Assembly (NCBI GenBank): GCA_029248525.1
Contig: JAQWJE010000049.1
Location: 124,001 to 188,000 of the forward strand
Length of the DNA: 64,000 nt
Source of the DNA: Candidatus Binatia bacterium
GTDB taxonomy: Bacteria > Desulfobacterota > Binatia > UBA12015
Reading direction: 5' to 3'
Part shown: positions 856-32,971 of the stretch, piece after piece
How positions within the stretch are numbered: the first letter of the stretch is position 1
Layout of the letters: every line of letters starts with the position of its first letter
Made by a program: the position numbers and the translations under genes
The notes under the pieces: generated by a model
The model's database searches: none
What the model saw: the letters and a program-made list of their open reading frames with translations, nothing else
What the model was told of the DNA's origin: nothing

Positions 856-1213
856 CAGCTTCTTCGATGTCTCCTGCAAACCAATTCTGACAATATCGAA
901 ATTTTTTCCTTTGCAAAATTGGTGGCCTAAGGAATTCATCGGAACGAGGTCTTGAATCTTCTCCAAGGTCGGCTTAAAAAGCGCCTTCCGCGGCAAACCG
1001 ACGCGGTTCCAACATTCATTTTTTTGCTTTACATTTTCGACAGACTTCAGCTGTTTTCAGCAGATGAAGTGGGTCGGAAACACCTACGTTATACCCCAGT
1101 GGAAAACTTTGCGTCGGGAAACCTGTAACATCCCGAATCTTCTGCGGAATTTATACTTTCCCACACCCCCTGTGCGGCTGTGGAGAAGTAGGAGAAAGGT
1201 CGTTGGTATAGGC
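856..1213. promoter_or_regulatory. hemL-dnaA divergent intergenic region with a DnaA-box-like site
   Basis: This 358-bp gap contains no convincing gene. It has AT-rich patches near 885-930 and 1010-1050. A site TGTGGAGAA at 1179-1187 differs by one base from the DnaA-box reverse complement TGTGGATAA. Weaker two-mismatch versions lie at 1098-1106 and 1157-1165. The location just before dnaA would suit autoregulation by DnaA. An open frame does extend dnaA upstream to 1064, but those 50 codons do not resemble DnaA domain I, so I leave them out. Confidence 0.45.
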
Positions 1214-2563
1214 ATGGAGAGCTGGCAAAGAGCTCAGCGGATACTCCGCCAGAACGTTGGTGAAGAGCACTACGATGCTTGGATCAAACCCCTGCGTTTG
1301 GGAAGCCTGGTGGCCGGTCGTGCGGTGATCCATGTACCAAGTAAATTTTACCGCGATTGGGTGAGCCGGAACTATCTCGAGCTCCTCCAGGCGTCACTTC
1401 GAGAAGGTGACGGGCCGGATCCCGAAATTGTTTTCGAGATCGACGGCGGCAAACAACACGAACTCTTCGCGGCCCGGCAGGCCGATCAACCGGCACCCGC
1501 ACGCAAGCGTGCGCCCCGATCCCGCGCCCGCCGCGGCAATTTGGTCGAACGCTATACCTTTGAATCGTTTGTCGTCGGGCCGAGTAACCAATTCGCCCAT
1601 GCGGCCGCGCTCGCTGTCGCCTCCAAACCCGGTGAACTTTATAATCCGCTCTTCATTTATGGATCCGTCGGCATCGGAAAGACTCATTTGGTCAATGCGA
1701 TCGGGCATCGCGTTCTAGAAAAAAACCCGATGGCCAAAATCGCCTACCTGTCCAGTGAGTCCTTCGTAAATGATCTGATCACTTCGTTGCGACAGGACAA
1801 GATGGCAGATTTCAAGACTCGGTTCCGGAAGGTGGACCTCCTGATCCTCGACGACGCCCAGTTCCTGGCGGGCCGCGAGAGGACACAGGAAGAATTCTTC
1901 CATACCTTCAATTCCCTGCACGAATCTCATAAACAAATCGTCCTGACATCCGATAAATTCCCCAAGGATATTCCTGACTTGGAAGAACGTCTGCGAAATC
2001 GATTCGAATGGGGCCTCACCGCAGATATCCAGGCGCCCGAGATCGAGACCCGAGTCGCCATTGTGCAGGCCAAGGCGATTCAGGCCGGTCTCAAGCTCCC
2101 CAACGACGTCGGTGATTTTGTCGCCGAGTGCGTCGGTGACAACGTCCGAGAGATCGAAGGTGCCATCACCCGCCTCGGTGCCATGGCCTCCCTCACGGAC
2201 CAGACAATCAATCTCGCGTTCGCGCGCGAAGTCCTTTCCCGCCAGACGCGCCGCGCGGTCACGCCGACCAGTATCGCTGAAATTCAGGATGCGGTTGCCA
2301 GTCATTTTCGTCTCTCGGTATCCGAAATTTGCTCCAAGAGGCGCACGCAGCATATCGCCCTGGCCCGCCAGATTGCGATGTATCTGGCCCGGGAGATCAT
2401 CGGAACCTCCTACCCGGCGATCGGCGACGCTTTCGGCGGACGAGACCATTCCACGGTGATTCACGCCTGCGACAAGATTCGCAAGGGAATCCATCGGGAT
2501 ACGGGTTTGAGCCAGACGGTTCAGACGCTCGATCAAGCTGTCCGCCGTCCCGCGACCAACTGA
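1214..2563 (+). CDS. dnaA: Chromosomal replication initiator protein DnaA
   Basis: Binds DnaA boxes at oriC, oligomerises with ATP and opens the duplex. The 449-residue product is of normal length. Domain I begins MESWQRAQRILRQNV; residues about 70-110 form a short basic linker. The AAA+ domain has Walker A GSVGIGKTH (150-158) and Walker B LLILDDAQ (209-216). The C-terminal helix-turn-helix ends in the box-binding signature GRDHSTVIHA. ATG 1214 was chosen because it matches the family N-terminus; a purine-rich AGGAGAAAGG lies about 14 bases upstream, a little far. It heads the + strand series dnaA, dnaN, gyrB, gyrA. Confidence 0.97.
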   Translation: MESWQRAQRILRQNVGEEHYDAWIKPLRLGSLVAGRAVIHVPSKFYRDWVSRNYLELLQASLREGDGPDPEIVFEIDGGKQHELFAARQADQPAPARKRAPRSRARRGNLVERYTFESFVVGPSNQFAHAAALAVASKPGELYNPLFIYGSVGIGKTHLVNAIGHRVLEKNPMAKIAYLSSESFVNDLITSLRQDKMADFKTRFRKVDLLILDDAQFLAGRERTQEEFFHTFNSLHESHKQIVLTSDKFPKDIPDLEERLRNRFEWGLTADIQAPEIETRVAIVQAKAIQAGLKLPNDVGDFVAECVGDNVREIEGAITRLGAMASLTDQTINLAFAREVLSRQTRRAVTPTSIAEIQDAVASHFRLSVSEICSKRRTQHIALARQIAMYLAREIIGTSYPAIGDAFGGRDHSTVIHACDKIRKGIHRDTGLSQTVQTLDQAVRRPATN

Positions 2564-2876
2564 TTCCGGATTATCGGCCTTTTGGATGGTGCAGGGGCGA
2601 TCCCGGGAAGGGCTTCGTGTTATCCCCTATGTGGAAAATCTGTTTGAAAGTTGAGTGCTACCCGGGGAAAGATTCTTCGGTTTGCTTCTGGACGCAATTC
2701 CGGGGATTTTCATGAACGGATTATGGACAGCCCTTTCCCCTTGGCAGTCTAGGTGATTCGTTAGTTTTCCACCGAATCCACAGCCTCTACTACTACTAGT
2801 TAATTAATTTAGACTCATAAGTAGTTTAGAGGGTGCAGGAGCTGAGGGAGCTTCCGACAAAGGAAATTACAAGATC
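2564..2876. other. Candidate chromosome origin (oriC) between dnaA and dnaN
   Basis: The 313-bp gap has no gene. DnaA-box-like sites include TGTGGAAAA (2630-2638, one mismatch to TGTGGATAA) and, with two mismatches each, TTATCCCCT (2620-2628), TTTTCCACC (2765-2773) and GAATCCACA (2774-2782). The last two abut. They are followed by a short GCCT spacer, the trinucleotide run at 2787-2798 and AT-rich sequence to about 2825. This order (boxes, GC spacer, CTA/TAG trios, AT-rich) matches the basal unwinding system known from bacterial origins. Position between dnaA and dnaN is typical. No replication data are available here. Confidence 0.75.
2787..2798. repeat. CTA x4 trinucleotide run, candidate DnaA-trios
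   Basis: CTACTACTACTA, read on the other strand as TAG repeats, lies four bases after the second of two abutting DnaA-box-like nonamers and is followed by GTTAATTAATTTAGA. In Bacillus subtilis, 3'-GAT-5' trios placed the same way next to boxes stabilise DnaA filaments on single-stranded DNA. The role here is inferred from position and repeat register. Confidence 0.65.
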
Positions 2877-3992
2877 ATGGAATTCACAATCGACAGATCA
2901 GATCTCATGCAAAGTCTGGGACTCGCGCAGGGTGTCGTCGAGAGACGCAACACGATGCCGATTTTGGCTAACGTCCTTCTCGAAGCTGAAGGAGACAGCC
3001 TCTCGATCTCTGCCACCGACCTTGAGGTTCATTTAAAGCGAACCTGTGGAGCCAAGATCAAGAAGCCGGGATCGGCAACGGTAGGCGCTCGGAAACTTTT
3101 CGAGTTGATCCGCGAACTCGGTGCCGGCGAAGTAACAATCCGTTCGCTTGATAATGACTTCGTTGAGGTGACGTCCAATCGGTCGAAAGTAAAATTGGTT
3201 GGTCTCGCGCCGGCTGATTTCCCGACATTTCCAACCGGTAGCGCAAAGGGTGGAACCACCATCGAACTCGCCGTTGAGAGCCTTCAGTCGGCCATAGACA
3301 GGACTTTATTCGCTGTTTCGACCGACGATACACGATCACATTTAGGAGGCGTTCTCCTGACCCCGATCGATGGAGGATTCCGGTTTGTGGGGACAGACGG
3401 GCATCGATTGGCTCTAGCTGATGTCCAAACCGGGAAAAGCGAGAAGGATTCGGTTGAAAAAGGAATTATTCTGCCGCGAAAAGGTCTCGCGGAACTGCGA
3501 AAACTTCTCGATGAAGCCGAAGGGAAGGCGAATATTCGCTTGCTTGGAAACGCGATCCGCGTTGAGCAGAGCAACGTGGACCTGGTGATGCGGTTGGTGG
3601 ACGGAGAATTTCCGAATTACGAACAGGTTGTCCCGGAAAGCACGAAGATATCGGTCGCTGTCGACAAGGGAGAGCTTTTTGCAGCGCTGAAACGCGTATC
3701 GGTCGTTGCCAGTGATCGGGCGCGCGGGGTTCGTCTGAATCTGGAAAAGGGAATGATGCAAGTTTCCGCCAGCAGTCCGGATTTCGGCGAGGCCAGTGAA
3801 GAACTGGCCGTTGAATACCAGGGAAGTGCTGTCGAGGTCGGTTTCAATGCCCGGTACCTCACAGATGTGCTTGGTGTTCTGGCTGAGGATCAGAGAGTTG
3901 TTCTGGGGCTTTCCGATGAAACCAGCGCCGGTGTCATTTCGACCGAAGAAGACGATTCCTACCGTTATGTCGTGATGCCGATGCGTCTCTGA
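2877..3992 (+). CDS. dnaN: DNA polymerase III beta subunit (sliding clamp)
   Basis: Ring-shaped clamp that tethers the replicative polymerase to DNA. The 371 residues match family length and fold into three topologically similar domains. Recognisable segments are MEFTIDRSDLMQSLGLAQGV and RNTMPILANVLLEA at the N-terminus, GTDGHRLALADV in the middle, VDGEFPNYEQVVP opening domain III, and the C-terminal YRYVVMPMRL that forms part of the partner-binding cleft. AAAGGA precedes the ATG by about ten bases. gyrB follows after 164 bp without the frequently intervening recF. Confidence 0.97.
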   Translation: MEFTIDRSDLMQSLGLAQGVVERRNTMPILANVLLEAEGDSLSISATDLEVHLKRTCGAKIKKPGSATVGARKLFELIRELGAGEVTIRSLDNDFVEVTSNRSKVKLVGLAPADFPTFPTGSAKGGTTIELAVESLQSAIDRTLFAVSTDDTRSHLGGVLLTPIDGGFRFVGTDGHRLALADVQTGKSEKDSVEKGIILPRKGLAELRKLLDEAEGKANIRLLGNAIRVEQSNVDLVMRLVDGEFPNYEQVVPESTKISVAVDKGELFAALKRVSVVASDRARGVRLNLEKGMMQVSASSPDFGEASEELAVEYQGSAVEVGFNARYLTDVLGVLAEDQRVVLGLSDETSAGVISTEEDDSYRYVVMPMRL

Positions 3993-32227: not shown

Positions 32228-32243
32228 TGTTTCACGTGAAACA
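32228..32243. promoter_or_regulatory. parS: parS site 1
   Basis: TGTTTCACGTGAAACA, a perfect 16-bp palindrome identical to the widely conserved bacterial parS consensus. It lies in the gap between the parA start (32134) and the rsmG stop (32249). Confidence 0.95.
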
Positions 32244-32248
32244 ATCGC

Positions 32249-32971
32249 CTATGCGGAATCCGGGAACCTTCGCCAAAACCGCAACTCATGTTCCCGGTCG
32301 CTTTCGGGCAGTACGTAACGAAACGGCGACAGATCCTCGAAATGCTCGAGCCCCGCTCGCAGTTCGACTTTCGGCGCGGATGCCGAGCAGAGGACCATGA
32401 CCAGGCCTCCAGGGCGGAGGAGGGGCAGGCTGCCCTCGAGAAGATCGCCGACGTCCGAGAAGGTGGCGCGGGAGACGAGAACATCCACGTTCATCAAGCC
32501 GGCGGTCGCCTCAAGTCGGAGATTTTCCACGCGGACGTCGTCACGCTTCCATCGCCGTAAAACCGACCTGAGAAAATGCGCCCTGCGCTGGCGGGGCTCG
32601 ACGAGCACCGTCTCCTCAGGACGAAGTGCTGCGGCCAGAGGCAGGCCCGGGAAACCCGCCCCGCTGCCGATATCCATCAAGCGACCGATCGAGCTGCCAA
32701 ACCGCTCGCGTAGCGGCTCGACAGCCAAAAGACTGTCGAGGAAGTGGCGGCGCAGCCATTCATCTCGAGTCCCCTCGCCCACCAGATTCAGTCGCGGTGC
32801 CCACAGCGAGAGCTCGTCGAGGTGATGTGAAAGCAGTGGAGCGATCTGGGTGAGGTCCGCGTTGAGGGATGCCGGAAGGTGCCGGGCGAGGAAATCCCGC
32901 TCTGAGAGCGAGAATCCTGAGTTTTCCGGCCTTGCAGCCTGCTTTTCGTCCAATTGTTTCACGTGAAACAC
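32249..32971 (-). CDS. rsmG: 16S rRNA (guanine527-N7)-methyltransferase
   Basis: SAM-dependent methyltransferase acting on G527 of 16S rRNA. 240 residues; motif I is MDIGSGAGFPGLPLAAA, preceded by WLRRHFLDSLLAV, and VLVEPRQRRAHFLRSV and VLVSRATF follow. The start is GTG 32971, 11 bases after the mnmG stop. The first six residues MFHVKQ are encoded by the parS palindrome, so the true start could also lie a little inside; no better ATG exists before the conserved helix. Confidence 0.95.
   Translation of the reverse strand: MFHVKQLDEKQAARPENSGFSLSERDFLARHLPASLNADLTQIAPLLSHHLDELSLWAPRLNLVGEGTRDEWLRRHFLDSLLAVEPLRERFGSSIGRLMDIGSGAGFPGLPLAAALRPEETVLVEPRQRRAHFLRSVLRRWKRDDVRVENLRLEATAGLMNVDVLVSRATFSDVGDLLEGSLPLLRPGGLVMVLCSASAPKVELRAGLEHFEDLSPFRYVLPESDREHELRFWRRFPDSA
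32955..32970. promoter_or_regulatory. parS: parS site 2, overlapping the rsmG start
   Basis: A second exact TGTTTCACGTGAAACA, 727 bp from site 1. It covers the first codons of rsmG. ParB loading here would spread over rsmG and into mnmG and parA. Confidence 0.95.

Follow-up and report, generated by a model that had tools for sequence, protein, structure and literature searches.

Gene context and anatomy of the dnaA-dnaN gap

The 64-kb stretch of DNA that was analysed (the window) carries genes in the order dnaA-dnaN-gyrB-gyrA, and the element described here lies in the intergenic gap between dnaA (1214..2563, + strand, 449 amino acids) and dnaN (2877..3992, + strand, identified by tblastn to dnaN of relatives). 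Read along the + strand, the gap contains two abutting DnaA boxes, an upstream one (TTTTCCACC, 2765..2773) and a proximal one (GAATCCACA, 2774..2782), with a 9-bp pitch that is common to six of nine family members. These are followed by a spacer of 4 nt, GCCT (2783..2786), of the same length as in class relatives and in Firmicutes, and by a CTA run (2787..2798; CTACTACTACTA on the + strand) that corresponds to four DnaA-trios, 3'-GAT-5', on the - strand. Directly 3' of the CTA run is GTTAATTAATTTAGA (2799-2813, + strand). According to nearest-neighbour calculations, the predicted duplex unwinding element (2790..2829) has the lowest stability among the 63,961 40-mers of the window. Besides the CTA run, no further (CTA)3+ or (TAG)3+ run occurs on either strand of the 64 kb.

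The strings and coordinates of the boxes, spacer, CTA run and AT-rich stretch given in an initial annotation of this DNA proved exact letter for letter, as did its count of two mismatches between each box and the E. coli consensus TTATCCACA. Its description of the boxes as weak agrees with these mismatches but does not hold for the proximal box within its clade, because the proximal boxes seen most often in the class (ATATCCACA, AAATCCACA, TTATCCACA and GAATCCACA) share the ending ATCCACA and because the proximal box, a good fit to the class consensus, ranks fourth to fifth in the window under a class matrix. Further box-like nonamers with no more than two mismatches are located at 2620..2638 (two facing each other, TTATCCCCT on the + strand and TTTTCCACA on the - strand) and at 2721..2729 (TTATGGACA, + strand), so that positions 2620-2782 contain five such nonamers of the 121 found window-wide (Poisson P ~2e-5), the densest cluster in the window.

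A cluster of four box-like nonamers (1034+, 1098-, 1157+ and 1179-; 1034..1187; Poisson P ~2e-4) is also present 5' of dnaA. These nonamers are weak (1-2 mismatches), and the cluster is predicted to be, possibly, a second DnaA-binding lobe, which hints at a putative bipartite origin. The oriC of B. subtilis is bipartite, with oriC1 and oriC flanking dnaA (PMC13220808); the window likewise has box-like clusters 5' (1034-1187) and 3' (2620-2782) of dnaA, although its upstream boxes are weak and their role is putative.

Location of the chromosomal origin

The cumulative GC skew over 248 contiguous kb of contig C49 reaches its minimum at window position 2567, in agreement with the skew inversion that had been anticipated around 2.7 kb. 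Upstream, where the contig was divided into 20-kb blocks up to 120 kb, the skew is negative in all six (-0.04 to -0.07); downstream, every sample is positive to about 800 kb off (contig 920 kb). The skew was followed on one contig of 951 kb and not around the whole circle, because the draft genome is split into 59 contigs. Two perfect parS sites (32228-32243 and 32955-32970), the only two in the genome, are situated about 30 kb off, where they flank rsmG beside parA-parB, with mnmE and gidA adjoining (gene names in this region were read from translations). The features by which an oriC is recognized, namely a skew switch, a box cluster beside dnaA/dnaN and parS near by, are all present here.

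Conservation of the box-spacer-trio block

The published search rules for a basal unwinding system (BUS) ask for a pair of boxes, the better with at most two and its partner with at most four mismatches, followed after a spacer of up to 16 bp by at least three NAN trios in the same strand and orientation (PMC8287927). The window, with boxes of two mismatches each, a spacer of 4 nt and four GAT trios, falls within these rules, and easily melted DNA lies beyond the trios as expected of a BUS. When dnaA-dnaN spacers were dinucleotide-shuffled (5,800 shuffles in all), 2.6% of the shuffles contained any combination of box and trio, with a maximum score of 4.7 under a fixed scoring rule that gives the window 8.0.

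A 28-column box-spacer-trio matrix was fitted to 106 dnaA-dnaN spacers of the class, with shuffle controls that were needed because the fit began from the window's own motif. Scores above 20 bits were obtained for 74 of the 106 class spacers and for none in five refitted shuffled sets; a 10-bit cut-off was unsafe, since with refitted matrices it let through 34-44 of 106 shuffled spacers, and was abandoned in favour of 20 bits. When a matrix built from 82 sites of other families was run over both strands of the window, it scored 34.3 bits at 2774, 6.6 bits at the overlapping position 2765, and at most 5.2 bits elsewhere. Thus the trio run is retained in most class members in the same register, 4 nt past the box, as the initial annotation had proposed should be looked for in relatives. 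About a dozen class members (in families f4, f6, f10 and f15) have no clear box-plus-trio match in the dnaA-dnaN gap, although family f6 visibly retains CTA runs; the block was not recognizable between dnaA and dnaN in L021, L024, L197 and L206 (f4), L207 (f10), or L203 and L210 (f15). Members that lack it may have their origin in another place or a diverged form of the block.

When the two parts of the class matrix are ranked separately in the window, the trios come first and the box fourth to fifth, and relatives such as L003, L004 and L019 have a degenerate box but keep the trios. The earlier suggestion that the trios may carry more of the specificity than the boxes is plausible on these grounds.

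These comparisons bear on two other explanations of the block. The origin could be real and yet be opened, as in E. coli, by the AT-rich stretch together with box-bound DnaA (by loop-back or by cooperative boxes), the CTA run being a passive part of easily melted DNA. Such an arrangement would accord with the AT-rich stretch being the least stable in the window and with the second box cluster 5' of dnaA, but it is very unlikely, given that the register of the trios and their 4-nt spacing are kept across families while the flanking AT sequence is not, and that the centre of the second trio varies only from T to G (top strand, 91 sites, described below) and not freely. That the CTA run and the sequence following it are instead a control element of dnaN (a leader hairpin or operator) with no replication signal, as their position 79-90 bp 5' of dnaN and the strong inverted repeats there in some relatives (L015-L017, L019, L020 and L026) might suggest, is extremely improbable: inverted repeats beat shuffles (at most 3/60) in only six of 27 relatives, that of the window is matched by 31 of 60 shuffles, an Rfam search gave no match, and the block goes together with DnaA boxes, with the skew minimum and with the weakest duplex.

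We conclude from the observed location and layout of the element, its conservation and the residues of the window DnaA (described below) that positions 2765-2829 are very probably the unwinding core, of the B. subtilis BUS type, of the chromosomal replication origin. The BUS layout that the initial annotation had recognized is upheld by the conservation and the skew minimum, with its function assigned by analogy to B. subtilis.

DnaA, helicase loading and the predicted mode of opening

The window DnaA is the sole match to PF00308 in its genome, and the solved structure closest to it is that of B. subtilis DnaA in complex with the BUS (8btg, E 4e-124). The trio-contact residues of B. subtilis DnaA, N187, I190, I193, R202 and E228, and its arginine finger R264 (PMC10721633) correspond to N186, I189, L192, K201 and E227 and to R263 of the window DnaA, which thus has the single-strand DNA-binding and arginine-finger residues expected of a BUS; K201 (for R) and L192 (for I) are the usual states in the class. 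Many class members (G018, G023, G030, G031, G037, G038, G094-G101 and others) encode a second DnaA homologue with approximately 40-47% identity to the query, whereas the window genome has one DnaA only.

By extrapolation from B. subtilis as regards the oligomer, the choice of strand and the opening, the two abutting boxes would serve as a double-strand platform for DnaA, from which an oligomer of ATP-DnaA would extend from the proximal box over the 4-nt spacer to the minus strand, each protomer capturing one 3'-GAT-5' trio. Base capture would stretch the minus strand so that the adjoining AT-rich DNA opens, and helicase would then be delivered to the DnaA-bound strand.

In B. subtilis, the second helicase is placed via a DnaD/DRE route (PMC10201434). 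The window genome has no match to the DnaD family PF07261, for which the controls B. subtilis and L. lactis were positive, and it does encode DciA. In a genome with DciA but no DnaD, the DnaD/DRE route cannot operate, and loading of the second helicase must differ from that of B. subtilis.

Comparison with known basal unwinding systems

The element of the window shares with the B. subtilis BUS (PMC6669920, PMC8287927, PMC10721633) the tandem boxes, the short GC-leaning spacer, the location in the dnaA-dnaN gap, the 3'-GAT-5' trios on the same strand with AT-rich DNA beyond them, and a DnaA closest to 8btg in which the trio-contact residues are kept; it differs in having four uniform CTA units and in belonging to a genome with DciA in place of DnaD. 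The order of box, 4 nt and trios is also that of Firmicutes, but the boxes of the window abut with a 9-bp pitch whereas those of the Firmicutes loci examined mostly have an 8-bp pitch, as judged by eye. A BUS has been predicted in 1755 of 2070 bacterial species (PMC8287927), and the window, which conforms to the same search rules, differs from these in coming from an uncultured lineage labelled as deltaproteobacterial (a family member is VFKT01000153.1, Deltaproteobacteria bacterium isolate Bin_38_12). A literature search for DnaA-trios with Deltaproteobacteria found no paper. The kind of system is already known, and the window would be a well-supported further example of it in an uncultured lineage.

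Central-cytosine trios in relatives

Variation within the trios was examined in 91 class sites, which were found with a matrix favouring T or G at the centre of the second trio and include some at 10-20 bits, where shuffles also score. The middle base of the first trio (top strand) is T in all 91; that of the second is T in 80, G in 11, and A or C in none. On the strand of the trios, a top-strand G reads as C. All 11 of the G sites belong to families f1, f4 (one doubtful site), f7, f8, f9 and f14, and tracts of central-cytosine trios (CTACGACGACGA on the top strand) are present in L025, L027, L029, L179 and L209 (all of f8), in L168, in L177 and L200, in L211 and in L013. All five located sites of f8 use central-cytosine tracts (for example CTACGACGACAACGA), and the outgroups L083, L095 and L073 have similar ones. 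Five or six families with central-cytosine trios amount to few independent events.

In engineered B. subtilis trios, replacement of the central A by C is functional and replacement by G or T is not, and homologs using other trio sequences have been proposed (PMC10721633). Judged by their sequences, the central-cytosine trios of the relatives may be naturally occurring equivalents of the engineered A-to-C trios. No report of natural central-cytosine trios was found in the literature searched, which does not prove absence; such trios escape the published search program (PMC8287927) because it demands NAN.

Mirrored tracts and palindromes

A trio-like run on the opposite strand, in the 60 bp past the trios, was found at p < 0.05 relative to shuffles in 29 of 87 class members (approximately 4 expected), a count that relatedness inflates and to which palindromes could also contribute. 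The same-strand control gave 3 of 87 class members, and outgroup loci gave 4 of 48. Mirrored tracts without boxes occur 25-40 bp past the forward trios in L015-L017, L026, L154, L171, L178, L185, L189, L198 and others. In L015-L017 (family f5), a near-perfect palindrome of about 51 bp, TACTACTACT...AGTAGTAGTA, lies directly past the boxes and spacer. A hairpin spanning the trios did not find support as a generally conserved feature, since it beats shuffles in only 6/27 relatives, the window not being one of them, and the window itself has no mirrored trio tract (p = 0.70). The mirrored tract is possibly a DnaA site for the second strand or possibly part of a palindrome, and is to be regarded as a lead and not as a finding.

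It may tentatively be imagined, although it is rather unlikely to be correct as a whole, that the BUS has been elaborated within the class, of which the window is a member without DnaD: central-cytosine trios would have arisen several times, as the chemistry of base capture predicts, and the opposite-strand tract approximately 25-40 bp further on in many members might allow DnaA to tag the other strand for the second helicase, the window representing the plain form with one tract.

Implications

With this analysis, the origin of an uncultured lineage is placed, and the example lends support to the proposed antiquity and wide retention of the BUS as a device for origin opening. The central-cytosine trios and mirrored tracts merit more attention than the origin of the window: the relatives make two points testable, the acceptance of central-cytosine trios by DnaA in nature and the placement of the second helicase where DnaD is missing.
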